DNA of 64,000 nucleotides from assembly GCF_031760065.1 (NCBI RefSeq), contig NZ_CP134500.1:992001-1056000 (forward strand). The letters run 5' to 3'. The notes beneath the pieces are model-generated. The model was not told where the DNA came from. It was given only the letters and a program-made list of their open reading frames with translations, and searched no databases. The position numbers were made by a program, and so were the translations under genes. Shown one piece after another: positions 32,791 through 62,131 of this stretch. Within the stretch, counting starts at the first letter, position 1. Every line of letters starts with the position of its first letter. The stretch is from Streptomyces durocortorensis. GTDB lineage: Bacteria; Actinomycetota; Actinomycetes; Streptomycetales; Streptomycetaceae.

Positions 32791-32952
32791 ATTCCCGTAT
32801 CCCCACCTCTCGAACCGGTGCAGTGGGCCCCCGAGTTCGTCACCCTACTAGCCGCCGGTGAACCGGCGACACCCTGTGGGGGCGCGGACAGGAGTGCGCC
32901 GGTGGGCGGGGCGCGGGATTGGCCGGGATCGTACGCTGACGGGCCGTCGGGG

Positions 32953-51560: not shown

Positions 51561-51580
51561 TTAGCTTAGGTATACCTAAG
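51561..51580 (+). promoter_or_regulatory. Iron box (DmdR/DtxR-type operator)
   Basis: TTAGCTTAGGTATACCTAA (51561-51579) contains the perfect palindrome CTTAGGTATACCTAAG (51565-51580) and matches the actinobacterial iron-box form TTAGGTTAGGCTAACCTAA. It lies 22 bases before the siderophore-interacting protein start, so iron should repress it. Confidence 0.85.
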
Positions 51581-51602: not shown

Positions 51603-52454
51603 GTGGCAGAGCGGCCGGCCCGGCAGGGACCCAAGGCCCAGGGGGCGCAGGTCGTGCGCACCGAGCAGATCACCCCGCACATGGTGCGTGTGGTCCTCGG
51701 CGGCGAAGGGCTCGCGGACTTCACCCTCTCCGGCTTCACCGACCACTACATCAAGCTGTGCTTCGCGCCCGAGGGCGCGGACTACGCCCACCCGTTCGAC
51801 ATGGCCGCCATCCGCGAGAACTACCCGCGCGAGCTGTGGCCCACCACCCGCACCTACACGGTGCGCTCGTGGGACCCGGTCGCCCGGGAGATGGCCGTCG
51901 ACTTCGTCGTGCACGGCGACGAGGGCCTCGCCGGGCCGTGGGCGCGGCGGGCGCAGGCCGGCGAGCAGGTGACCTTCCTCGGCCCCGGCGGCGGTTACGG
52001 GCCGGAGGCCTCGGCCGACTGGCATCTGCTGGTGGGCGACGAGAGTGCGCTGCCGGCGATCGCCGCCGCGCTGGAGCAGATGCCGACGGGCGCGCTGGTG
52101 CACGCCTTCGTCGAGGTGCCGGACGCCTCGGAGGAGCAGAAGATCGTGACGCCCGACGGGGTGGCCGTGACCTGGCTGCACCGCGGCGACCGGCCCGTCG
52201 GCGAGCTGCTGACCGCGGCCGTGAAGGAGCTGGACTTCCCCGACGGCGAGATCCAGGCGTTCGTGCACGGGGAGGCGGGCTTCGTGAAGGAGATCCGCCG
52301 CCATCTGCGCGTGGAGCGGCAGATCCCGCTGGCTCAGCTGTCGATCTCGGGCTACTGGCGCCTCGGCCAGAACGACGACGCCTGGCGCGCGGTGAAGCGC
52401 GAGTGGAACGAGCAGGTGGAGCGCGAACAGGAGAGCGGCACGACGGCCGCGTAG
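51603..52454 (+). CDS. Siderophore-interacting protein (ferric-siderophore reductase, FAD-binding)
   Basis: A 283-aa ViuB-type flavoprotein that releases iron from siderophores in the cytoplasm. The FAD-binding barrel has RTYTVRSWDPVAREMAVDFV and VHGDEGLAGPWARRAQAGEQ; the NAD(P)-binding part has LLVGDESALPAIAAALEQMP. The C-terminus ISGYWRLGQNDDAWRAVKRE is a family hallmark. GTG 51603 follows GGGAG. It is preceded by an iron box. Confidence 0.93.
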   Translation: MAERPARQGPKAQGAQVVRTEQITPHMVRVVLGGEGLADFTLSGFTDHYIKLCFAPEGADYAHPFDMAAIRENYPRELWPTTRTYTVRSWDPVAREMAVDFVVHGDEGLAGPWARRAQAGEQVTFLGPGGGYGPEASADWHLLVGDESALPAIAAALEQMPTGALVHAFVEVPDASEEQKIVTPDGVAVTWLHRGDRPVGELLTAAVKELDFPDGEIQAFVHGEAGFVKEIRRHLRVERQIPLAQLSISGYWRLGQNDDAWRAVKREWNEQVEREQESGTTAA

Positions 52455-52583: not shown

Positions 52584-52620
52584 GGACCCCGTCCGCCGCA
52601 CATCGCGGCGGGCGGGGTCC
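52584..52620. terminator. Bidirectional terminator after the siderophore-interacting protein gene
   Basis: A 16-bp stem with one wobble, 52584-52599 with 52605-52620, with a 5-base loop. The 130 bases before it hold two diverged copies of a GCCGGCAC/CCCGGAGCGGCCGC block about 50 bases apart. It also ends the minus-strand hypothetical gene 12 bases away. Confidence 0.75.
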
Positions 52621-52631
52621 GTGCGTCGGCC

Positions 52632-52967
52632 TCAGACCTCCGCAGTGCCTTCCGGAGCGCCTCCCCGAGCGCCTTCGTCCGACGGAGCCGCACGGTCGTC
52701 CGCCGACCGGTTCCCCTCCGCCGGCCCGTTCCCCTCCGCCGGGCCGGAGAGGTGCCCCGGGGACTCGAAGAGCCGGTAGGACGCGTCGATGTGCGCCAGC
52801 CTCCGCAGTGCGCCGAGCATCGCCTCGCCGAGGTCGCCGTTCGGGCTGCTGATCTTCCTCGCCGTCCGCGCCGTCCGGCCGCGGCGGCGCGAAACGCCCG
52901 CCGGCCGAGTCGCGCGTCCTCCCGGGGCCCGCTCTGAAAAGATCGCCCGCACCCGACCAATCCACAC
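52632..52967 (-). CDS. Small hypothetical protein, start uncertain
   Basis: From about residue 38 the frame reads SSPNGDLGEAMLGALRRLAH and IDASYRLFESPGHLSGPAEG with over 80 percent G/C third positions, unlike an accidental frame, and a terminator follows its stop. The first about 35 codons (GTG 52967 onward) look non-coding and overlap the sigK promoter, so the real start may be ATG 52820 (62 aa) or just upstream. It contains an internal GPAEGN duplication. No family recognised. Confidence 0.45.
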   Translation of the reverse strand: MWIGRVRAIFSERAPGGRATRPAGVSRRRGRTARTARKISSPNGDLGEAMLGALRRLAHIDASYRLFESPGHLSGPAEGNGPAEGNRSADDRAAPSDEGARGGAPEGTAEV

Positions 52968-52984
52968 GGCCGTCCGCTCCGAAC
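52957..52984 (+). promoter_or_regulatory. Predicted SigK-dependent promoter of sigK-rskA
   Basis: CCAATCC (52957-52963), a 15-base spacer and CCGAAC (52979-52984), 39 bases before the sigK GTG. The same pair at the same spacing precedes the fasciclin gene and the FAD-oxidoreductase operon. It resembles the mycobacterial SigK consensus CCATCC...CCGAAT and implies autoregulation. Confidence 0.75.
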
Positions 52985-53023
52985 CACTGCCGGAAGCGAC
53001 GATCGTCCCGGGAGGAAACCCGC

Positions 53024-53608
53024 GTGAAGGAAGCCGTACACATCAGTGGGGTGCCCTCGCCCGGTCCCGACCTCCAGGAACTCCTGGGGCGGGTCGCGCG
53101 GGGCGACCAGGACGCGTTCGCCGCGGTGTACGACGCGGTGAGCGGGCCCGTGCTCGGCCTGGTGCGCAGCGTGCTCCGCGACCCGGCGCAGTCGGAGGAG
53201 GTGGCGCAGGAGGTGCTGGTGGAGGTGTGGCGTACCGCACCCCGTTTCCAGGCCTCCCGGGGCAGCGCGATGAACTGGGTGCTGACCCTGGCCCACCACC
53301 GGGCCGTCGACCGGGTCCGCGCGGCCGAGGCCGCGGCCGCCCGGGAGCACAAGGCGGCGCTGCTGGACCGGACGCCCGCCTTCGACGAGGTGTCCGAGCA
53401 GGTCGAGACCCGGTTGGAGAGAGAACAGGTACGACGCTGTATGCGCACCCTGTCCGAGCTGCAGCGGGAGTCGGTGACGCTGGCCTACTACCGGGGCCTG
53501 ACCTACCGTGAGGTTTCCGAACTCCTCACCGTGCCGCTGGGCACCATCAAGACACGGCTCCGTGACGGCCTCATCCGCCTTCGCGACTGCCTGGGGGTGA
53601 GCGCGTGA
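53024..53608 (+). CDS. sigK: ECF RNA polymerase sigma factor, SigK-type
   Basis: A 194-aa ECF sigma factor. Region 2 is at about 25-95 (DAFAAVYDAVSGPVLGLVRS, EEVAQEVLVEVWRTAPRF, SAMNWVLTLAHHRAVDRVR); region 4 at about 130-190 (LSELQRESVTLAYYRGLTYR, VPLGTIKTRLRDGLIRLRD). Its stop overlaps the GTG of an RskA-type anti-sigma gene. The facing gene set matches the M. tuberculosis sigK locus (Rv0444c-Rv0449c). GTG 53024 follows GGAGGAAA. Likely controls its own promoter and the two others nearby. Confidence 0.9.
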   Translation: MKEAVHISGVPSPGPDLQELLGRVARGDQDAFAAVYDAVSGPVLGLVRSVLRDPAQSEEVAQEVLVEVWRTAPRFQASRGSAMNWVLTLAHHRAVDRVRAAEAAAAREHKAALLDRTPAFDEVSEQVETRLEREQVRRCMRTLSELQRESVTLAYYRGLTYREVSELLTVPLGTIKTRLRDGLIRLRDCLGVSA

Positions 53609-54357
53609 ACACGGCCGAGCTGCACACACTGACCGGGGCCTATGCCCTGCATGCGCTGCCGGAGTCCGAACGGCAGGCGTTCGAACGGCATCTGGAGGAC
53701 TGCGAGGCCTGCGCCCAGGAGGTGCGGGAGCTGTCGGCCACCGCCGCCCGGCTCGGCCTCGCCGTCGCCGAGTCCCCTCCGCGCGAGCTGCGCGCGAGGG
53801 TGCTGCGGGCGATCACGACCGTACGCCAGGAGACTCCGGCGCCCGGCAGACGGGAGCGGACCGGCGGGGGCGGACGCACCGGCCGACGGTACGCCTACGC
53901 TCTCGCCGCCTGCATCGCGGCGGCCGCCGCGTTCGGCGGGGTCGCGGTCTGGCAGAACCAGGTGGCGCAGGACGCACGGCAGGAGGCGCGTCAGGCGCAG
54001 CGGCAGAACGAGCAGCTGGCCCAGGTGCTCTCGGCCCCGGACGCGAAGACCGCCTCGGGCGAGCTGACCGGCGGCGCGCGCGGCACCGTCGTCGTCTCGC
54101 AGAGCCAGAACCGTGCGGTGTTCCTGGCCTCGGGGATGCAACGGCCGCCGAGCGGCAAGGTCTACCAGATCTGGTTCAACGACGAGGGCACGATGCGCTC
54201 CGCCGGTCTGATGGACCCGACCGCGAGCGACGACGCAGTCCTGCTGGACGGGCCGGTCGACCAGGCGTCCGGGATGGGCATCACGGTCGAGCCCGCCGGG
54301 GGGTCCGCCGAGCCGACCTCGTCGCCCGTGGCGCTGATGGACTTCCCGACGGCCTGA
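53605..54357 (+). CDS. rskA: RskA-type membrane anti-sigma factor
   Basis: A 250-aa single-pass protein. The N-terminal zinc anti-sigma motif HLEDCEAC (H-x3-C-x2-C, about residues 30-37) follows the LHTLTGAYALHALPESERQA helix. A membrane helix lies at about 98-113 (YALAACIAAAAAFGGVAVW), and the extracytoplasmic RskA domain contains VVVSQSQNRAVFLASGMQ, KVYQIWFNDEGTMRSAGLMD and GMGITVEPAGGS. GTGA overlap with sigK. It should hold SigK at the membrane until released by a redox or proteolytic signal. Confidence 0.92.
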   Translation: MNTAELHTLTGAYALHALPESERQAFERHLEDCEACAQEVRELSATAARLGLAVAESPPRELRARVLRAITTVRQETPAPGRRERTGGGGRTGRRYAYALAACIAAAAAFGGVAVWQNQVAQDARQEARQAQRQNEQLAQVLSAPDAKTASGELTGGARGTVVVSQSQNRAVFLASGMQRPPSGKVYQIWFNDEGTMRSAGLMDPTASDDAVLLDGPVDQASGMGITVEPAGGSAEPTSSPVALMDFPTA

Positions 54358-54396
54358 CCACTCACCCACGAAATCCTGCAAGGGAGCACCCGTTCC

Positions 54397-55764
54397 ATGA
54401 GTGTCGCGGTGGTGCTGTTCACCTCCGATCTGCGAGTCCACGACAACCCGGTGCTGCGTGCCGCACTGCGGGACGCGGACGAGGTCGTCCCGTTGTTCGT
54501 CCGGGACGAGGCCGTCCACCGGGCCGGGTTCGACGCGCCCAACCGGCTGGCGTTCCTCGCGGACTGCCTGGCGGATCTGGACGCCGGACTCCGGCAGCGG
54601 GGCGGCAGGCTGATCGCCCGCCAGGGCGAGACGGCCCGCGAGGTGAGACGGGTCGTCGAGCGGACCGGGGCGGCCTGCGTGCACGTCGCCGCCGGAGTCA
54701 GCCGGCACGCGGCGCGGCGCGAGCAGCGGATCGGTGAGGCTCTGGCGGGCACCGGCTGCGCACTGCGCGTCCATGACGCGGTGGTCACCGCGCTCGCGCC
54801 GGGCCGGGTGGTACCGACGGGCGGCAAGGACCACTTCGCGGTGTTCACCCCGTACTTCCGCCGTTGGGAGACGGAGGGAGTGCGGGGCACCGTGACGGCT
54901 CCGCGTACGGTCCGGGTGCCGGACGGCGTGGCGAGCGACCCGCTCCCGGACCGGGACGCGGTCGGGAACCTCTCCCCCGGTCTCGCCCGGGGCGGCGAGG
55001 ACACGGCCCGCAAGCTGGTCACGTCCTGGCTGCACGGACCGATGGCCGGCTACGAGGACGGCCACGACGATCTGGCCGGGGACGCGACGTCCCGGCTCTC
55101 CCCGCATCTGCACTTCGGTACGGTCTCCGCCGCCGAACTGGTGCACCGCGCGCGGGAGAAGGGCGGGCCCGGCGGCGAGGCGTTCGTGCGGCAGCTGGCC
55201 TGGCGCGACTTCCACCACCAGGTCCTCGCGGCCCGCCCCGACGCCTCCTGGTCCGACTACCGGCCGCGCCGGGACCGCTGGCGCTGCGACGAGGAGGAGA
55301 TCGACGCATGGCGGACCGGGCGGACGGGCTATCCGCTGGTGGACGCGGCGATGCGGCAGCTCGCGCACGAGGGCTGGATGCACAACCGGGGCCGGATGCT
55401 GGCCGCGAGCTTCCTCACCAAGACGCTGTACGTGGACTGGCGGGTGGGCGCCCGGCACTTCCTCGACCTGCTGGTCGACGGCGACCTGGCGAACAACCAG
55501 CTCAACTGGCAGTGGGTGGCGGGCACCGGCACGGACACCCGGCCCAACCGGGTCCTCAACCCGGTGATCCAGGGCAAGCGCTTCGACCCTCGGGGCGACT
55601 ACGTGCGGCGCTGGGTCCCGGAGCTGGCGGATCTGGAGGGGGCGGCGATCCACGAGCCCTGGAAGCTCCAGGGCCTGGACCGGGCGGGCATCGACTATCC
55701 GGACCCGGTGGTGGACCTGGCCGAGGCCCGGTCCCGGTTCGAGCGCGCCCGCGGCCTGGACTGA
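54397..55764 (+). CDS. phr: Deoxyribodipyrimidine photolyase (CPD, class I)
   Basis: A 455-aa light-dependent DNA repair flavoenzyme. The N-terminal alpha/beta domain (VAVVLFTSDLRVHDNPVLRA) binds the antenna pigment; the C-terminal helical domain binds FAD (LSPHLHFGTVSAAELVH, GEAFVRQLAWRDFHHQVL, YPLVDAAMRQLAHEGWMHNR and LNWQWVAGTGTDTRPNRVLN). Trp residues for electron transfer are present. It starts 39 bases after rskA and is probably transcribed with it, which ties light or oxidative damage to SigK. Confidence 0.94.
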   Translation: MSVAVVLFTSDLRVHDNPVLRAALRDADEVVPLFVRDEAVHRAGFDAPNRLAFLADCLADLDAGLRQRGGRLIARQGETAREVRRVVERTGAACVHVAAGVSRHAARREQRIGEALAGTGCALRVHDAVVTALAPGRVVPTGGKDHFAVFTPYFRRWETEGVRGTVTAPRTVRVPDGVASDPLPDRDAVGNLSPGLARGGEDTARKLVTSWLHGPMAGYEDGHDDLAGDATSRLSPHLHFGTVSAAELVHRAREKGGPGGEAFVRQLAWRDFHHQVLAARPDASWSDYRPRRDRWRCDEEEIDAWRTGRTGYPLVDAAMRQLAHEGWMHNRGRMLAASFLTKTLYVDWRVGARHFLDLLVDGDLANNQLNWQWVAGTGTDTRPNRVLNPVIQGKRFDPRGDYVRRWVPELADLEGAAIHEPWKLQGLDRAGIDYPDPVVDLAEARSRFERARGLD

Positions 55765-55780
55765 CCGGACGACGGGACGC

Positions 55781-55819
55781 GCAAGGGCCCGCACCGCTCG
55801 CTGCGGAACGGGCCCTTGC
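55781..55819. terminator. Terminator between photolyase and DUF1295 genes
   Basis: GCAAGGGCCCG (55781-55791) pairs with CGGGCCCTTGC (55809-55819), enclosing a 17-base loop, between convergent stops. Confidence 0.75.
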
Positions 55820-55827
55820 CGATGTGC

Positions 55828-56631
55828 TCAGGTGCCGCGCGGCGGCCGGGGGAGGAAGCCGCTGGTCCGCGCGACGTATGCGGCGAACCCGGGCCGGTCG
55901 GCCATATGGCGCTCCAGCAGGGCCGCACCGCTGCCCTTGGTCAGCAGGAAGCTCATCACGAGCGGGGCGACGACGGTGGCGGCAGCGGCGGCCGGGGCCT
56001 GGCAGACGAGAAGGAACAGGCCCCACCACACGCAGAAGTCGCCGAAGTAGTTCGGATGGCGGGTCCAGGACCACAGCCCCCGGTCCATGATCTTCCCCCG
56101 GTTGGCGGGGTCGGCCTTGAACCGGGCCAGCTGTGCGTCACCGATCGCCTCGAAGGCGAGGCCGACCGCCCACAGAAGCACCCCGGCCCAGGCCCACCAG
56201 GCCAGTGGCGCGGTGAGGTACTGCGCGGCCTGCACCGGGAGCGAGACGAGCCAGACCAGCGCGCCCTGGAGCAGATACACCTTGCGCAGGGCGTACAGGT
56301 TCGGGTTGCCGGGGGCCTTGGCCAGCATCTTCGCGTAGCGCGGGTCCTCCCCGTGGCCCCGGCCGCGCCGCCCGATGTGGAAGGCGAGGCGCAGCCCCCA
56401 GATCACGGTCAGCGCGGTCACCAGGAGCCGGCGGCCGTCGTCGCCCGCACCCGCCGAGAGGCCGTAGGAGACCAGGGCGACGGCGGCGAACGCGACGCCC
56501 CAGGCGATGTCGACGATCCGGTGCACCCCCTTGTTCAGGGCGACGGCGAAGGTGACGAGCATGACGCCGAGGGCGGCGACGGCCGCCCCCGCGAGCCCGT
56601 TCGCGAACGCGGCCCAGGCGAAGCCGCTCAC
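55828..56631 (-). CDS. DUF1295 membrane protein (steroid-reductase-like)
   Basis: A 267-aa polytopic protein homologous in layout to Rv0446c. About six hydrophobic helices, then the NADPH-binding reductase motif GLWSWTRHPNYFGDFCVWWG (about 192-211) and GSGAALLERHMADRPGFAAY near the end, as in DUF1295/C14-reductase-like proteins. Probably modifies a membrane lipid made by the cyclopropane synthase upstream. GTG 56631 overlaps the stop of the small ORF before it (GTGA). Last gene of the operon. Confidence 0.88.
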   Translation of the reverse strand: MSGFAWAAFANGLAGAAVAALGVMLVTFAVALNKGVHRIVDIAWGVAFAAVALVSYGLSAGAGDDGRRLLVTALTVIWGLRLAFHIGRRGRGHGEDPRYAKMLAKAPGNPNLYALRKVYLLQGALVWLVSLPVQAAQYLTAPLAWWAWAGVLLWAVGLAFEAIGDAQLARFKADPANRGKIMDRGLWSWTRHPNYFGDFCVWWGLFLLVCQAPAAAAATVVAPLVMSFLLTKGSGAALLERHMADRPGFAAYVARTSGFLPRPPRGT

Positions 56632-56828
56632 CGGTCCGCTCCCGGGTTCCCGGCTCCGCGGGTCCGCGCGGGGACGGTGGGGGCCTCATGGGGTCCGGTA
56701 TCGCGCCCGCCCCGCATCCGCACCCCCAGGGGCGGCCCGCCGCCGGGGGAGCGCTCGGTCGGCGGTTCGGCGCGTTGGGCGGCCCCGGCCGGGGTGCGCC
56801 GGGCGGAGGGCCTGGGGGCGGCGGTCAC
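56628..56828 (-). CDS. Undescribed 66-codon ORF coupled on both sides
   Basis: A small frame of 66 codons, rich in Arg, Pro, Gly and Ala (VTAAPRPSARRTPAGAAQRA and so on), with about 90 percent G/C third positions. Its GTG start overlaps the cyclopropane-synthase stop as GTGA and its own TGA overlaps the GTG of the DUF1295 gene, so it fills the gap exactly. No family, no membrane segment. Either a real small protein or a decayed linker that keeps ribosomes moving to the next gene. Confidence 0.5.
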   Translation of the reverse strand: MTAAPRPSARRTPAGAAQRAEPPTERSPGGGPPLGVRMRGGRDTGPHEAPTVPARTRGAGNPGADR

Positions 56829-58090
56829 GCGGTCTCCTCGCGGGTCAGCAGCAGTTGCTGCACATCGAGATACCCGGAGCGGAAACCCGCTTCGGAGTAG
56901 GCGAGATAGAAGGTCCACATCCGGCGGAAGACGGCGTCGAAGCCGAGGGCGTCGACCTCGGCGGCCCGTTCGGTGAACCTCTCCCGCCACAGCCGGAGCG
57001 TCTCGGCGTAGTGCGCGCCGAAGCGGATGCGCCGGGTGGTGCGCAGGCGGGTGTGGCCGGTGGTGATCCGCTCCACCGCCTCGGTGGAGGGCAGCAGCCC
57101 GCCGGGGAAGATGTACTTCTGGATCCAGGTGTACGTGGCACGGCTGGCGCGGAGCCGGTCGTCGGGCATGGTGATGGCCTGGAGGGCGATCCGGCCGCCG
57201 GGGGCCAGCAGGCGGTCCAGGGTCCCGAAGTAGACCGGCCAGAACTCCTCGCCGACCGCCTCGACCATCTCGACGCTGACGATCGCGTCGTAGTCGCCGG
57301 TGACCTGGCGGTAGTCGCTCAGTCGCACCTCGACGCGGTCCTCGTACCCGGCCTCGCGGATGCGGGTGCGGGCCAGTGCGCGCTGTTCGGCGGAGAGCGT
57401 GACGGTGACGACCCGGGCGCCGCGGGCGGCCGCGCGGATGGCCAGTTCGCCCCAGCCGGTGCCGATCTCCAGGAGGCGGGTGCCCTGGCCGACCCCGGCC
57501 GCGTCCAGCAGCCGGTCGATCTTGCGGTGCTGGGCGGCGGGCAGCAGGTCGTGCTCGGCGGGGAAGCCGCGGAAGACGGCGGAGGAGTAGGAGAGCGTCT
57601 CGTCGAGGAAGAGGGCGAAGAGCTCGTTGGAGAGGTCGTAGTGGTGGCTGATGTTGTCCCGGGAGCCCTCGGGGGTGTTCATCTGCGCCGCGGGCCTGCG
57701 CGGCGCCCAGACGCCACGCAGGCGTTGTAGCGGCCGGGGGACGAGGTCGGCGGCGTTGTCGGCGAGCACGGTCAGCACGCCGACCAGGTCCGGCGCGTCC
57801 CACTCCCCCGCCATGTAGGACTCGCCGAAGCCGATGAGCCCGCTCGCGCCGATCCGCCGGAAGAAGGCGTCGGGGTCGCGGATGTCCATGAGCGGCCCGC
57901 CGAGGCCGATGTCCTTCCTGCCCGCGAGCCGGGCGCGGATCGGAAGCCGGCCGAGCGCGTGGCGGACGACGCGTTCGGCGACGGCCGTCCGGGCGCGGGA
58001 GGCCCGGGGCAGCGCGACGATGTCGGGCCAGCGTTCCGGGTCGGCCCCGGGGGTGTGTTCTGCCGGCGGCGCAGAGGTGGGCGCGGTCAC
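56825..58090 (-). CDS. Cyclopropane-fatty-acid-phospholipid synthase (UfaA1-like)
   Basis: A 421-aa S-adenosylmethionine-dependent methyltransferase acting on unsaturated acyl chains of membrane lipids. Family blocks: GFGESYMAGEWDAPDLVGVL, NISHHYDLSNELFALFLDET, SAM motif RLLEIGTGWGELAIRAAARG, VEMVEAVGEEFWPVYFGTLD, and YIFPGGLLPST. It corresponds in position to ufaA1 (Rv0447c). GTG 58090 overlaps the DUF1365 stop. Product may be cyclopropane or mid-chain methyl fatty acids. Confidence 0.92.
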   Translation of the reverse strand: MTAPTSAPPAEHTPGADPERWPDIVALPRASRARTAVAERVVRHALGRLPIRARLAGRKDIGLGGPLMDIRDPDAFFRRIGASGLIGFGESYMAGEWDAPDLVGVLTVLADNAADLVPRPLQRLRGVWAPRRPAAQMNTPEGSRDNISHHYDLSNELFALFLDETLSYSSAVFRGFPAEHDLLPAAQHRKIDRLLDAAGVGQGTRLLEIGTGWGELAIRAAARGARVVTVTLSAEQRALARTRIREAGYEDRVEVRLSDYRQVTGDYDAIVSVEMVEAVGEEFWPVYFGTLDRLLAPGGRIALQAITMPDDRLRASRATYTWIQKYIFPGGLLPSTEAVERITTGHTRLRTTRRIRFGAHYAETLRLWRERFTERAAEVDALGFDAVFRRMWTFYLAYSEAGFRSGYLDVQQLLLTREETA

Positions 58091-58809
58091 TGCATGCCTT
58101 CCTGTGGGCGGTGCGGGGGACGGGGCTGCACGGGGAGCCCGCGCAGGTAGAGCCGGATGCCGTGCAGGCGGATCGCGGCGGAGACGAGGACGGTGGAGAG
58201 GGGGTGGCGGAGGGCGAGGCGCACCAGTTCGCGAGGGGTGGCCGGCCGGCGGCAGCCCCGTACGGTCGCGGTGAACGGGCGGTTCCCCTCCCGCTCCAGA
58301 CAGACACTCAGGTCGAGACGGGGCCCGGGCTCGGGCAGCCGCATCCGGTAGCCGCCGTCCACGGGGAAGAACGGCGAGACGTAGAACTCCTTGCCGGTCA
58401 CGGCTCGGTGGTCCCCGTCGGGACGCAGCAGGTAACCGTGCCGTCCGCCGTACGTGTTGTGCACCTCGGCGACGACGCAGAGCGCAGTGCCGTCGGCGCG
58501 GTGGCACCAGTAGACGGTGATGGGGTTGAAGACGTACCCGAACACCCGGGCCTGGGTGAGCATGGTGACGGTCCCGTCGCCGAGCTCCACCCCCCGCGCA
58601 CGCAGGAAGCGCTCCAGCCCGGCCCGGATCGTGGGCGCGGTACCGCCGAAGTGGTCGCGGGCCTCGAAGCGGGCCAGCGGCCGCAGGGCGCGCGGCAGCC
58701 GGGGTGGCCGGTCGGGGTCGATCAGCCACAGATACGTGCGGTGGCGGAACGCGTACTTCCCGGGGCGGGTCCGTACGTGCGTGATGGTGCACGGGTAGAG
58801 GGCGTTCAC
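58087..58809 (-). CDS. DUF1365 domain protein
   Basis: A 240-aa protein whose layout fits Rv0448c: ALYPCTITHVRTRPGKYAFR, FGYVFNPITVYWCHRADGTA, VVAEVHNTYGGRHGYLL and the KEFYVSPFFPVDGGYRMRL block. The family always travels with the FAD oxidoreductase and cyclopropane synthase and is presumed to act in the same fatty-acid modification. Both ends overlap neighbours as GTGA. Confidence 0.9.
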   Translation of the reverse strand: MNALYPCTITHVRTRPGKYAFRHRTYLWLIDPDRPPRLPRALRPLARFEARDHFGGTAPTIRAGLERFLRARGVELGDGTVTMLTQARVFGYVFNPITVYWCHRADGTALCVVAEVHNTYGGRHGYLLRPDGDHRAVTGKEFYVSPFFPVDGGYRMRLPEPGPRLDLSVCLEREGNRPFTATVRGCRRPATPRELVRLALRHPLSTVLVSAAIRLHGIRLYLRGLPVQPRPPHRPQEGMQ

Positions 58810-60080
58810 CACCTCACCCCCAGGGCGGCCGCGGCCTCGACCCCCGAACGGCAGCCGTCCTCGTGGAACCCCCAGCCGTGGTACGCCCCCGCGTAGGCGG
58901 TGACGGGACCTGACAGGGCGGGCAGCCGGGCCTGGGCGGCGACCGACTCCGGGGTGTAGACGGGGTGTTCGTAGACCATGCGGGCGCGGACGGTGTCCAG
59001 GTCGACCCGGTCGGAGCCGTTCAGCGTGACCACGAAGGTCTCGGGCGCGTCGAGCCGTTGGAGCCGGTTCATGTCGTAGCTGACGGTCACGTGCTCGGCG
59101 TCCGCGGCGCACGAGGGCATCAGGTAGTTCCAGGACGCCCTGGCTCTCCGGGCGCGCGGCAGCAGGGCGGTGTCCGTGTGCAGCAGCGTCGGATTGCGGG
59201 AGTACCGGAACGCGCCGAGTGTGCCGCGCTCGGCGTCGGTCGGGTCGGCGAGCAGCCGCAGCGCCTGGCCGGGGTGGGTGGCGATGACGACGGAGTCGTA
59301 CGGGGTGGTCGTGCCGTCCTCGGTGGTGACGTCGACGCCCTCCGCGTGCCGGGTGACGGCGCGCACCGGGGTCGTGGTGTGCACGGTGGTGAGCTGCTTG
59401 ACGACGCGGTCGACGTACGCGCGGGAGCCGCCGGTGACAGTGCGCCAGACCGGGGAGCCGCCGACGGTGAGCATGCCGTGGTGATCGAGGAACCGGAAGA
59501 GGTAGCGGGCCGGGTAGCGCAGGGCGGTGACCGGGTCGCAGGACCAGACGGCGGAGACCATGGGGGTGAGGAAGTGGGCGCGGAAGTACGGCGAGAAGCG
59601 CCCGCGCCGGGCGAACTCCCCCAGCGTCATCGCGCTCGCACCGCTTTCCGGCTGCGCCAGCAGGGCCCGGGCCGCACGGTGGAAGCGCGGCACCTCGGCG
59701 AGCATCCGCAGATAGCGTCCGCGCACCGCTGAGCCCGGCTGTGCGAAGAGCCCGGCGGGGCCGCGTGCCCCCGCGTATTCGAGGCCGCACCCCTCGCACC
59801 GTACGGACATCGACATCTCGGACTTCTGGGTGGCGACCCCGAGTTCGTCGAAGAGCCGCAGCAGATACGGGTACGTCCGCCGGTTGTGCACGATGAACCC
59901 GGAGTCGACGCGGTGCACCCGGCCGTCGGACGCGCCCAGATCATGCGTGTGGGCGTGCCCCCCGACGCGGTCGTCCGCTTCGTACAGCGTCACCTCATGA
60001 GCCTGCCTGAGAACGTGGGCGGCGGTCAGTCCCGCCACTCCGGCTCCCACCACGGCCGTCCGCCGCCGTTCCCCTGTCAT
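58806..60080 (-). CDS. FAD-dependent amine-oxidase-type oxidoreductase
   Basis: A 424-aa flavoprotein corresponding to Rv0449c. The Rossmann motif AVVGAGVAGLTAAHVLRQAH is at residues about 9-28, then YEADDRVGGHAHTHDLG, GFIVHNRRTYPYLLRLFDEL and the C-terminal FAD motif AYAGAYHGWGFHEDG. First gene of the operon; ATG 60080 follows GGAGGGAA. It probably oxidises or desaturates the lipid-bound acyl chain worked on by the cyclopropane synthase. It has its own SigK-type promoter. Confidence 0.92.
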   Translation of the reverse strand: MTGERRRTAVVGAGVAGLTAAHVLRQAHEVTLYEADDRVGGHAHTHDLGASDGRVHRVDSGFIVHNRRTYPYLLRLFDELGVATQKSEMSMSVRCEGCGLEYAGARGPAGLFAQPGSAVRGRYLRMLAEVPRFHRAARALLAQPESGASAMTLGEFARRGRFSPYFRAHFLTPMVSAVWSCDPVTALRYPARYLFRFLDHHGMLTVGGSPVWRTVTGGSRAYVDRVVKQLTTVHTTTPVRAVTRHAEGVDVTTEDGTTTPYDSVVIATHPGQALRLLADPTDAERGTLGAFRYSRNPTLLHTDTALLPRARRARASWNYLMPSCAADAEHVTVSYDMNRLQRLDAPETFVVTLNGSDRVDLDTVRARMVYEHPVYTPESVAAQARLPALSGPVTAYAGAYHGWGFHEDGCRSGVEAAAALGVRW

Positions 60081-60142
60081 TCCGGTTCCCTCCGGGTCTT
60101 TCCACTCCGGTCGGAGTGCTGCTGGAGCGCTGCTCACCCTCC

Positions 60143-60170
60143 ATTCGTTACCGGTGCCCGGAAGGATTGG
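60143..60170 (-). promoter_or_regulatory. Predicted SigK-dependent promoter of the FAD-oxidoreductase operon
   Basis: On the minus strand CCAATCC (60170-60164), a 15-base spacer and ACGAAT (60148-60143), 63 bases upstream of the FAD-oxidoreductase ATG. Confidence 0.72.
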
Positions 60171-60216
60171 TCGGGTCTCCGACCTCTGCTCCGATCGGGT
60201 GAAGGGGAGCCCGGGA

Positions 60217-60244
60217 CCAATCCGCCGGCCGACCGGCGCCGAAC
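60217..60244 (+). promoter_or_regulatory. Predicted SigK-dependent promoter of the fasciclin gene
   Basis: CCAATCC (60217-60223), a 15-base spacer and CCGAAC (60239-60244), about 140 bases before the fasciclin ATG. It is back to back with the minus-strand promoter. Confidence 0.72.
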
Positions 60245-60383
60245 CCCCCGTGTGAGAACAGAGCGGAACGACGCGCGGACGGACGGGGCGCTGCTGCCCC
60301 GGTCGGTCACGCTCGGCGCGTGGCCCTCGCCCCCCCACTCCGCTCCGCTCCGCTCACCGAACCTTCGATCCAGGAGAAACGCC

Positions 60384-61031
60384 ATGAACACGCTCCTCTT
60401 CCGCCGCGCAGCCGTCGCCGTTTCCGCAGCAGCCGTGCTGCCGCTGACGCTGACCGCCTGCTCGTCGGACGACTCCTCCAAGGACTCGGCGGCCGGCTCG
60501 ACGCCCAGCGCGTCCGCGCCGGTGAGCCCCTCGGCCGATGAGTCGATGCCCATGGACGGGCCGTTCGGCCCGGCCTGTTCGTCGGTGCCGAAGCAGGGCG
60601 CGGGCTCGTTCGACGGCATGGCGAAGGACCCGGTCGCCACGGCGGCCTCGAACAACGAGGAGCTGTCGACGCTGGTGGCCGCCGTGCAGCAGGCCGACCT
60701 GGTCGACACGCTCAACAACGCCGAGAACATCACGGTGTTCGCCCCGACCAACGACGCGTTCGCGAAGGTCCCGAAGGCAGACCTGGACGCGCTGCTGGCG
60801 GACAAGGCCGCGCTCACCAAGGTCCTCACCTACCACGTGGTGGGCGAGAAGCTGACCCCGCAGCAGCTGGAGAAGGGGTCCTTCGACACGCTGGAGAAGA
60901 GCAAGCTGACGACGGCCGGCTCGGGCGTCGAGTACACCGTGAACGACTCCTCGAAGGTCGTCTGCGGCAACGTCCCGACCGCCAACGCGACGGTCTACAT
61001 CGTCGACACGGTCCTGATGCCCCCGAAGTAG
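60384..61031 (+). CDS. Fasciclin-domain lipoprotein (MPT70/MPT83-like)
   Basis: A 215-aa exported lipoprotein: signal sequence with lipobox LTLTAC (Cys at about residue 26), a Ser/Pro linker, then a fasciclin domain (DPVATAASNNEELSTLVAAV, NITVFAPTNDAFAKVP, LTYHVVGEKLTPQQLE, NATVYIVDTVLMPPK). In the M. tuberculosis complex the fasciclin antigens MPT70 and MPT83 are SigK targets. Adjacency to a sigK locus plus a matching promoter fits. ATG 60384 follows AGGAG. Confidence 0.93.
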   Translation: MNTLLFRRAAVAVSAAAVLPLTLTACSSDDSSKDSAAGSTPSASAPVSPSADESMPMDGPFGPACSSVPKQGAGSFDGMAKDPVATAASNNEELSTLVAAVQQADLVDTLNNAENITVFAPTNDAFAKVPKADLDALLADKAALTKVLTYHVVGEKLTPQQLEKGSFDTLEKSKLTTAGSGVEYTVNDSSKVVCGNVPTANATVYIVDTVLMPPK

Positions 61032-61052
61032 CGCTCACGCAAACCCCACGGA

Positions 61053-61095
61053 CGAGGGGCGGAAAGTCGCACCGAGGTGCGGCTCCCGCCCCTCG
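61053..61095 (+). terminator. Terminator after the fasciclin gene
   Basis: CGAGGGGCGG (61053-61062) pairs with CCGCCCCTCG (61086-61095); an inner GCACC/GTGC hairpin occupies the loop. Confidence 0.75.
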
Positions 61096-61126
61096 CCGCG
61101 CGCGGGCGCTGCCTTAGCCTGACCGG

Positions 61127-62131
61127 ATGACGGATCGTGAATCCCCGAGCCGTGCCGACCGGGTGTCCGGCGCCGTGGTCGGCTCCGCTGTCGGTGACGC
61201 GCTCGGCGCCCCCTTCGAGTTCGGCGCCCCAGGGGTGTTCACCGACCGCTTTCCGGACGGCGTCGGGACGTTGTGCGGAGGCGGCGGCTGGGACCCGGGC
61301 GAGGCGACGGACGACACACAGATGGCTGTGCTGGTCGGGGAGTCACTGCTGGAACAGGACGGCCTCGACCCGCCGGACGTGTTCGACAGGTTCCGGCGCT
61401 GGGCGGCGGGCGCTCCGAAGGACATCGGTCTCCAGACCGAGGACGTGCTGACCAACGGCGAACCGTGGGACCTGGCCGCGGCCCTGCACTTCCAGCTCAA
61501 CGGACGGGCAGCGGGCAACGGTTCACTTATGCGGGCGACCACGTCGGGCGTGTATTTCGCCCACGCGGGGCGCGCGGCCACGATGGAGGCGGCACGGCGG
61601 ATCGCGGCGCTCACCCATGGCGACCGGGCGGCCTGGGAGGGCACCGCCGTCTTCCACGAACTGATCCGGGCGGCGCTGCGGGGCGACGATCCCCTCGGCG
61701 CCGTCCCCGGGGCACTGGACGAGGTGCACGCCGATCACCGGACGCGCTGGGCGACGGTTCTGGCGCCCGACTGGCACCCGGGGCTGGCGACCGAGTTCAA
61801 CGGGGCGGTGTGGCCCTGCCTCGGCACGGCGCTGTGGGCCCTGCGGACGACGGACACCCTCGAACGGGCCCTTGCGGCCGCCGTCGACGTGGGCGGGGAC
61901 ACCGACACGGTGGCAGCCGTGACGGGCGGGCTGGCGGGAGCGGTGTACGGCATCGGCGCCGTCCCGGGCCGCTGGCGCACGCCCTTGCACGTGCCGCTGC
62001 CCGGGTACGGGGACCGCGTGCTGCGTACGGCGGACCTGATCACCCTGGCCGACCGGCTGGACCGTCAGGGAGAACAGGCAGCCGGTACCGGAGATCCACC
62101 CAGATCCGTATCGCCGGAAATGTACACATAA
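61127..62131 (+). CDS. ADP-ribosylglycohydrolase family protein
   Basis: A 334-aa all-helical hydrolase removing ADP-ribose from proteins or metabolites. Metal-binding motifs are complete: GSAVGDALGAPFEFGAPGV near the N-terminus, EATDDTQMAVLVGESLLEQD, NGSLMRATTSGVYFAH, and the late VDVGGDTDTVAAVTGGLAG with the di-magnesium aspartates. TAGCCT lies six bases before ATG 61127, a leaderless arrangement. Confidence 0.93.
   Translation: MTDRESPSRADRVSGAVVGSAVGDALGAPFEFGAPGVFTDRFPDGVGTLCGGGGWDPGEATDDTQMAVLVGESLLEQDGLDPPDVFDRFRRWAAGAPKDIGLQTEDVLTNGEPWDLAAALHFQLNGRAAGNGSLMRATTSGVYFAHAGRAATMEAARRIAALTHGDRAAWEGTAVFHELIRAALRGDDPLGAVPGALDEVHADHRTRWATVLAPDWHPGLATEFNGAVWPCLGTALWALRTTDTLERALAAAVDVGGDTDTVAAVTGGLAGAVYGIGAVPGRWRTPLHVPLPGYGDRVLRTADLITLADRLDRQGEQAAGTGDPPRSVSPEMYT

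Follow-up and report, generated by a model that had tools for sequence, protein, structure and literature searches.

What signal does the SigK-RskA sigma factor/anti-sigma factor pair answer, and what does it switch on? The question is raised by a 64,000-nucleotide (nt) stretch of the Streptomyces durocortorensis genome (contig NZ_CP134500.1, positions 992,001 to 1,056,000; here called the window), in which sigK and rskA stand beside a photolyase gene, a lipid operon, and a fasciclin gene. SigK-RskA controls the antigens MPT70 and MPT83, and its stimulus has been called obscure in print (PMC9861118). We propose that the SigK-RskA regulon is most likely a photo-oxidative stress response of these Streptomyces, an explanation of the whole to which we give a probability of about 0.6. 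What can be read from the sequence is the genes, the promoter-like sites, their conservation, their co-occurrence with sigK, and a match in both gene families and promoter geometry to the sigmaE-ChrR system.

The composite motif CCAATCC-N15-[AC]CGAA[CT] has exactly three matches in the window, at the very positions (Table 1) that a first-pass annotation of this DNA had named, whereas 100 dinucleotide-preserving shuffles yielded none. The CCAATCC 7-mer by itself was not enriched (4 observed versus 4.6 expected), and its fourth copy, on the minus strand at 32916-32922, lies outside any composite match, in agreement with the annotation, which had seen no -10 part there. Across the 7.30-Mb genome, the strict pattern recovered the three window sites and a single additional one at 6,416,447, 5.4 Mb away. 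Because this fourth exact site lies before a molybdopterin oxidoreductase-fasciclin gene pair, the regulon is not self-contained, as it had at first been described. A slightly looser pattern gave 6 sites versus 1 in a backwards control, and a scan allowing one mismatch gave 17 versus 10; further targets are thus indistinguishable from noise, and only the four exact sites stand out. Two other genome sites were set aside: that at 682,770 lies between two open reading frames (ORFs), both on the opposite strand, and is probably due to chance, and that at 4,292,280 has a spacer one base short and lies ~100 nt upstream of an ORF whose reading as an alpha/beta hydrolase was made by eye and is unconfirmed. 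A sigma-70 promoter scan of 52600-61200 found no ordinary promoter.

The motif and its gene partners recur across the genus. We compared the window with 80 named loci (79 from Streptomyces or Streptomycetaceae and 1 from Actinacidiphila) and 40 further Streptomyces loci; 5 of these 121 were dropped for identical sigK sequence. The remaining 116 distinct loci are related rather than independent, since they were chosen by sigK similarity; the region upstream of sigK could be scored in 115 (one stretch was too short) and the neighbor of rskA in 110. Within their 2.08 Mb are 180 exact sites, whichever base flanks CGAA, with 0 in the backwards control. The nearest recognized downstream gene was sigK for 75 sites, the flavin adenine dinucleotide (FAD) oxidoreductase gene for 48, a molybdopterin oxidoreductase gene for 33, and a fasciclin gene for 18, which make up 174 of the 180; two sites precede a CMAS gene and one a DUF1295 gene, and three are unassigned. 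All gene-assigned sites lie within 600 nt of their gene, and 166/174 within 250 nt. An exact site precedes sigK in 74 of the 115 scorable loci and the FAD gene in 48 of 65, rising in the close clade (sigK identity of 87% or more) to 40/43 for sigK, 32/33 for FAD, and 21/22 for molybdopterin genes. In 101 Streptomyces genomes, the strict pattern occurred 158 times versus 3 in the backwards control, and it was present in 66 of the 78 genomes with a SigK match (E ≤ 1e-40) versus 5 of the 23 without (Fisher p 3.7e-8; three of the SigK-less genomes, G089, G090, and G098, were identified by elimination). Of those five, three are less than 85% complete. Taken together, these data argue that a conserved SigK regulon almost certainly lies behind CCAATCC-N15-(A/C)CGAA(C/T), as the single regulon of the first-pass annotation implied.

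Both regulators are clear members of their families. SigK scores 293.7 bits against NF007228 (cut-off, 226) and matches the solved SigK 4nqw (PDB; E 1.2e-47), with C139 and C189 aligning with the 4nqw cysteines (M. tuberculosis C133 and C183), while RskA, encoded directly behind sigK with a 4-nt overlap, matches RskA_C (5.6e-32) and RskA_N (3.4e-7). The cysteine pair is kept in 116/116 Streptomyces SigK proteins and H29-C33-C36 in 114/114 RskA proteins, with H7 invariant in the 40 aligned; the resulting H-x3-C-x2-C is a predicted zinc-type motif. A fold search with RskA gave no match at E ≤ 0.001, and the anti-sigma factor RslA (3hug_B), considered as a fold relative, was too weak to be used (E 0.51, probability 0.91, 29% over 65 columns). 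Beyond Streptomyces, we considered 20 sigK loci that represent 12 numbered families of the class. Of these, 17 retain each SigK cysteine, and among the 15 RskA proteins that could be aligned, 13 retain the histidine and the first cysteine. The motif lies within 250 nt upstream of sigK in 6 of the 20 (by a looser pattern with no control), molybdopterin and fasciclin genes stand beside sigK-rskA in 6, and the full lipid operon adjoins sigK in at least 2 (L113 and L129), a lower bound because the stretches reach only 3 to 4 kb upstream.

The closest parallel to this set of genes is found in the sigmaE-ChrR systems (ECF11, an extracytoplasmic function [ECF] group) of Rhodobacter, Shewanella, and Vibrio. 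The R. sphaeroides RpoE regulon, as described in PMC7074977, includes rpoE, chrR, cfaS, phrA, RSP_1090, RSP_1091, and a fasciclin gene, with 13 of 15 genes induced by singlet oxygen, and the same paper remarks that R. capsulatus RpoE/ChrR resembles SigK/RskA. Common to the two systems are a sigma factor, an anti-sigma factor, cfa/ufaM, FAD/ufaD, and DUF1365/ufaO genes, a photolyase, a fasciclin, and, as predicted from sequence, the zinc-type H-x3-C-x2-C motif in the anti-sigma domain. We examined 12 plasmid regions encoding a relative of the FAD protein, hand-picked from 40 rows listed of 134 records (10 proteobacterial, 1 Rhodococcus, and 1 S. clavuligerus, the last with no DUF1365 or CMAS gene annotated). 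A sigma-70-family gene lies close to the operon in 6 of the 10 proteobacterial regions. In 5 of these (Mesorhizobium, Phyllobacterium, Aminobacter, Pseudoalteromonas, and Azospirillum), its partner anti-sigma factor is a ChrR-named or ChrR-cupin protein; in the sixth, Burkholderia anthina, it is an RskA_C protein. Domains were checked in three of the six proteins, and the ChrR cupin (PF12973) was found in those of Mesorhizobium and Azospirillum. Photolyase or cryptochrome genes are close to the FAD gene in 4/10. Mesorhizobium terrae gathers sigma-ChrR, DUF1295, FAD, DUF1365, two CMAS, fasciclin, and msrPQ genes in one cluster, with no photolyase gene in the stretch; its FAD, DUF1365, CMAS, DUF1295, and fasciclin proteins are homologous to those of Streptomyces, and msrPQ stands where Streptomyces has its molybdoenzyme, which it parallels. 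Beyond PF00174, the two molybdoenzymes have little in common (30% over 158 residues, E 2e-7).

The promoters agree as well. Shewanella RpoE2-ChrR promoters are given as TGATC[CA]...CGTAA, that is, ATC[CA]-N16-CGTA (PMC4336711), and the window sites, restated as ATCC-N16-CGAA, have the sigmaE-ChrR geometry ATCC-N16-CG[A/T]A, differing in a -10 CGAA where ChrR-type promoters have CGTA. In the 11 plasmid regions other than S. clavuligerus, ATC[CT]-N16-CG[AT]A occurs 37 times versus 6 backwards, and for 14 of the 22 first genes chosen it falls in the 200 nt upstream (backwards control, 0/22). All 14 belong to regions with a sigma gene or to Rhodococcus (14/15 there versus 0/7 elsewhere); the p value of 2e-19 is only indicative, because the 22 genes were chosen after annotations and sites were known. 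One region, from a Burkholderia anthina plasmid (L247), is a betaproteobacterial look-alike of the Streptomyces layout in its sequence, with an RskA_C-type anti-sigma factor and three GCATCC-N16-CGTAT sites, before the sigma gene, the DUF1295 gene, and the FAD operon. These likenesses would be best explained if SigK-RskA filled, in actinobacteria, the place of the ChrR photo-oxidative response. Similar genes also come under other control: in Pseudomonas, light induces phrB and ufaM, which share a unit with an FAD oxidoreductase gene, 25- to 33-fold, as part of a set whose regulator is not a sigma factor but LitR/CarH (MerR-type), linked to a LOV photoreceptor.

Published evidence from other organisms on the signal points both ways. 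Several lines of it are consistent with a light or singlet-oxygen signal, which the first-pass annotation had also suggested in proposing light or oxidants and which we consider plausible by analogy with the ChrR-type gene set and the light-induced mycobacterial antigens. In M. kansasii, mpk83 rises 6-fold and mpk70 3-fold in the light (PMC9861118), RskA falls under ultraviolet light in Nesterenkonia (PMC8965627), and in Vibrio cholerae blue light works by way of ChrR (PMC5241685). Zinc can be removed from a ChrR-like peptide by singlet oxygen (PMC6852236), and the singlet-oxygen-driven loss of ChrR requires RSP_1090/1091 and DegS/RseP-type proteases (PMC3818230). The authors of the latter suggested that sigma factors beside such genes elsewhere work alike; none of the terms Mycobacter-, Streptomyces, and SigK occurs in the text of that paper. 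M. tuberculosis RskA is cut by RIP1 (PMC7509140), and the window's genome has site-2-protease-family matches at two places. Because zinc loss from a ChrR-like peptide, ChrR proteolysis, RIP1, and these protease matches all fit it, a path from light or singlet oxygen through RskA loss to SigK is favored, and a photo-oxidative signal for SigK-RskA seems reasonably probable.

The mycobacterial SigK-RskA system (ECF19; M. tuberculosis and M. bovis) has the same SigK and RskA families, conserved cysteines, and MPT70/83-type fasciclin, and the gene row FAD-DUF1365-CMAS-DUF1295-sigK-rskA is found in one f4-family locus (L113). The match to the M. tuberculosis neighborhood drawn in the first-pass annotation is thus borne out, for this row, by that f4-family locus. 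Another Streptomyces, which lacks the lipid operon, carries the site (CGAA core kept) near sigK before a gene for a DsbD_TM-AhpC-Thioredoxin_10 protein (L066:4501-6309, minus strand), a make-up that we take to be that of DipZ; a DipZ-like gene behind the motif is a further likeness. The Streptomyces genes differ in being split into divergent operons with three promoter sites and a photolyase behind rskA, in having a fourth, unlinked site before a molybdopterin oxidoreductase gene, and in the H-C-C motif of Streptomyces RskA. Earlier publications describe SigK regulons, the sigmaE-ChrR core regulon, and the mpt83-sigK-rskA cassette together with its SigK site, which Yersinia also has (PMC7509140). 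Among the matches listed in the open-licence literature, none joins DUF1365 or UfaD with Streptomyces or Mycobacterium, none has both ECF19 and fasciclin, and SigK and singlet oxygen come together solely in PMC7074977. An S. griseus promoter study names a fasciclin gene in another predicted regulon (PMC8914203); which gene is meant is unclear in that source, and it was not used.

For the lipid operon, one alternative has to be weighed. In R. sphaeroides, the furan ring is formed by UfaO, which belongs to the DUF1365 family; UfaD is a desaturase that binds NAD/FAD, UfaM is a fatty-acyl methylase that depends on S-adenosylmethionine (SAM), and R. palustris RPA2571-RPA2570-RPA2569 corresponds to UfaD-UfaO-UfaM (all as given in PMC7380195). 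The FAD-DUF1365-CMAS genes of the window are of the same families in the same order, in one operon, differing in the additional DUF1295 gene and in the actinobacterial fatty-acid substrates. The envelope-lipid role first assigned to these genes can be made more specific and, since UfaO carries DUF1365, is better read as a predicted furan-fatty-acid pathway; on balance, we lean toward a furan fatty acid as the product. The likeness to UfaD, UfaO, and UfaM rests on families and gene order, and the homology shown is to uncharacterized ChrR-linked proteins; among the 120 listed of 4081 DUF1365 relatives found, none had a functional name, all being called DUF1365 or hypothetical or left nameless. 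The operon could instead make a plain methyl-branched (10-methylstearic-type) or cyclopropane acid, SigK being a general envelope-lipid regulator. M. tuberculosis UfaA1 reportedly makes 10-methylstearate, and the CMAS protein matches its family and also NCBIfam cyclopropane-synthase models, though far below cut-off. DUF1365 and amino-oxidase-type FAD genes in the RPA2571-2570-2569 order would be unexpected for a plain acid, and we regard such a product as doubtful.

As for the signal, SigK-RskA could sense thiol/disulfide or envelope redox state (reductant, disulfide stress, copper, or reactive chlorine), with the photolyase an incidental passenger. The invariant cysteines of SigK and the invariant H-C-C motif of RskA, the DipZ-like thiol-redox gene behind the motif in L066, and the molybdopterin oxidoreductase among the targets would all fit, as would the report that in M. 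tuberculosis an oxidized SigK disulfide stabilizes SigK-RskA and reduction releases SigK (PMC7509140). This effect is opposite in sign to what we propose and argues against simple oxidant release through those cysteines. The photolyase gene lies right behind rskA in only 36 of the 110 scorable loci and not in the other 74. The photo-oxidative reading, for its part, draws on those 36, of which 6 (L059, L064, L069, L218, L222, and L228) have no lipid-operon gene in the stretch, and on phr being the sole photolyase match of the window's genome. Other observations also weigh against a photo-oxidative regulon. M. kansasii sigK is absent from the 14 light-induced genes reported in PMC9861118, where dipZ was not induced, mpk83 and mpk70 rose only by the modest factors given above, and the light-induced phrB is at a separate locus. 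Where sigK is less than 80% identical, the exact site precedes only 24 of 59 sigK genes (8/22 and 16/37 in the two lower identity classes), a few of which carry near variants such as GCAATCC or CGTA; 3 of the 20 wider loci lack each SigK cysteine, and 2 of 15 lack the H-C-C motif. In 4/10 of the proteobacterial regions, no nearby gene is annotated as a sigma factor (a MerR regulator with phrB is present in one, and neither in three), and msrP in Mesorhizobium is the sole miss among the 15 first genes, with no site. The window's anti-sigma factor is an RskA with RskA_C and no ChrR cupin PF12973, and no SigK site was seen at a third fasciclin gene of the genome (6,806,478; G000:C1, L274). Against redox sensing, the photolyase, predicted furan-fatty-acid, and fasciclin genes coincide with known photo-oxidative regulons and light induces mpk83/70, which leaves it improbable. 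That the shared boxes are a coincidence or an unrelated operator could appeal to the unenriched 7-mer and the near-noise one-mismatch count; we rejected it, as there are no matches in shuffles, 158 sites stand against 3, 174/180 precede the same gene types, and the motif co-occurs with sigK, and we give it practically no weight.

The features of the locus are collected in Table 1. Hidden Markov model (HMM) searches upheld the first-pass gene identities (SigK, RskA, photolyase, DUF1295, CMAS, DUF1365, FAD protein, and fasciclin), and the photolyase gene does sit in the sigK operon, as had been said; the fasciclin is of the MPT70/83 type and, with a SigK-type promoter upstream, a candidate SigK target. 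phr and the DUF1365 gene are the genome's only PF03441 and DUF1365 matches, respectively. For the CMAS protein, family searches used 56825-58078. The strong hairpin between the convergent operons is a probable shared terminator of both; a terminator scan (3 found, 1.6 expected) did not include it, and no T-run terminator was called there.

Table 1. Positions of promoter-like sites, genes, and other elements of the sigK locus, numbered within the window
Feature	Position	Strand	Remarks
SigK-type promoter 1	52957..52984	+	CCAATCC-N15-CCGAAC, upstream of sigK-rskA-phr
sigK, ECF sigma factor	53024..53608	+	NF007228; Cys139 and Cys189
rskA, anti-sigma factor	53605..54357	+	RskA_N, RskA_C; His7, His29, Cys33, Cys36 zinc-type motif (predicted)
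phr, DNA photolyase	54397..55764	+	PF03441; starts 39 nt after rskA
Strong hairpin between convergent operons	55778..55821		Fold of 55766-55825, -35.3 kcal/mol
DUF1295 membrane protein	55828..56631	-	Last gene of lipid operon; HMM
CMAS/SAM-dependent fatty-acyl methyltransferase, predicted UfaM-like	56825..58090	-	GTG start at 58090
DUF1365 protein, predicted UfaO-like	58087..58812	-	PF07103, 1e-66
FAD-dependent oxidoreductase (amino-oxidase family), predicted UfaD-like	58806..60080	-	First gene of operon, ATG at 60080
SigK-type promoter 2	60143..60170	-	CCAATCC-N15-ACGAAT, upstream of FAD-DUF1365-CMAS-DUF1295
SigK-type promoter 3	60217..60244	+	CCAATCC-N15-CCGAAC, upstream of fasciclin gene
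Fasciclin leader part like 5' end of relatives' molybdopterin gene	60251..60331	+	blastn 75%/83 nt, E 5e-8 with L172
Fasciclin lipoprotein (MPT70/83 type)	60384..61031	+	HMM; MPT70 1nyo, E 1.1e-34

The distant fourth site is directly upstream of a gene for a 531-aa molybdopterin oxidoreductase (PF00174); among solved structures, sulfite dehydrogenases score best against it. Behind this gene comes a second fasciclin gene (L077 6177-6824), 74% identical to that of the window. Four relatives were picked as having a similar distant site; in these and the window's genome, a molybdopterin gene lies behind it in 5/5 and a fasciclin gene in 4/5 (the L264 stretch, of 6 kb, is without one). Among the relatives, L041 and L044, for example, have a molybdopterin gene and, behind it, a fasciclin gene after the rightward site of the cluster itself. 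The window probably lost this molybdopterin gene in place, because 60251-60331 still resembles its 5' end, and we read this segment as probably a fossil of the gene, deleted with its promoter kept. At 32/33 molybdopterin sites, the -10 box is followed 8 nt later by a GTG, which is seen at none of 75 sigK or 48 FAD-gene sites and should mark where a leaderless transcript would begin. It is kept at 16 of the 18 sites now nearest a fasciclin gene, including the window's, which fits the fossil reading. Another promoter-keeping deletion is seen in L047 and L145 (both from genome G057), where the FAD, DUF1365, and CMAS genes are missing and the leftward SigK site is now directly before DUF1295.

Some observations concern neighboring or related genes. 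Where the window has only a 193-nt gap (56632-56824) between CMAS and DUF1295, many relatives carry an additional CMAS gene in divergent orientation. Further fasciclin genes with an exact site are found at other loci of two relatives (L270 and L271). In three genomes (L267, L268, and L075), exact sites also stand before related small alpha/beta hydrolase genes (HMM-tested for L268 and L075), and the window's genome has no exact site before such a gene. Many Streptomyces have a second SigK-like group (~65% identity), near which some of the 158 sites lie; there, the motif precedes a DUF4331 gene (L139, L144, and L155), in some cases divergent from sigK, and also a separate zf-HC2, anti-sigma-like gene (L137, L142, and L150), with neighbors HMM-tested for L139 and L137 alone. 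A siderophore-interacting protein gene (51603-52454) adjoins sigK in many relatives, and just before it in the window is the palindrome TTAGGTATACCTAA (51566-51579; 1 match, 0 in shuffles), presumably akin to the actinobacterial iron box.

The scheme that follows is our inference; it covers the binding of SigK, its signal, the proteolysis of RskA, the product of the lipid operon, and a role in repair. RskA, a membrane anti-sigma factor with its zinc-type N-terminal motif, would hold SigK until photo-oxidative damage at the membrane inactivates it, probably by regulated proteolysis. SigK so freed would transcribe from CCAATCC-N15-(A/C)CGAA(C/T), switching on its own operon, including the photolyase; the divergent operon, with its predicted methylated furan fatty acids (UfaD-UfaO-UfaM type plus DUF1295); the fasciclin surface lipoprotein; and the distant molybdopterin oxidoreductase-fasciclin pair, which may repair oxidized envelope proteins. 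The furan lipids would shield the membrane and might, in turn, act on RskA in a positive loop. More tentatively, as a possibility that we would rate below even odds, SigK-RskA may be the actinobacterial form of an ancient photo-oxidative module in which the anti-sigma factor has been exchanged while geometry and targets remain common with sigmaE-ChrR. The furan acid might then be both a shield and an amplifier that promotes RskA proteolysis, as RSP_1090 does for ChrR, the mycobacterial SigK signal might be membrane photo-oxidation, and the ufaA1 operon might be a furan-fatty-acid pathway.

The SigK regulon is real and conserved, and the proposal for its signal and lipid product appears well supported by the comparisons made here. 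The locus makes a harmless Streptomyces available for asking about the SigK stimulus: its promoter is defined, its transcription units number four, and the signal to expect is specific. A lipid operon annotated mainly as DUFs gains a predicted, testable product. The locus also ties together two sigma-factor systems, SigK-RskA and sigmaE-ChrR, that are usually treated apart.

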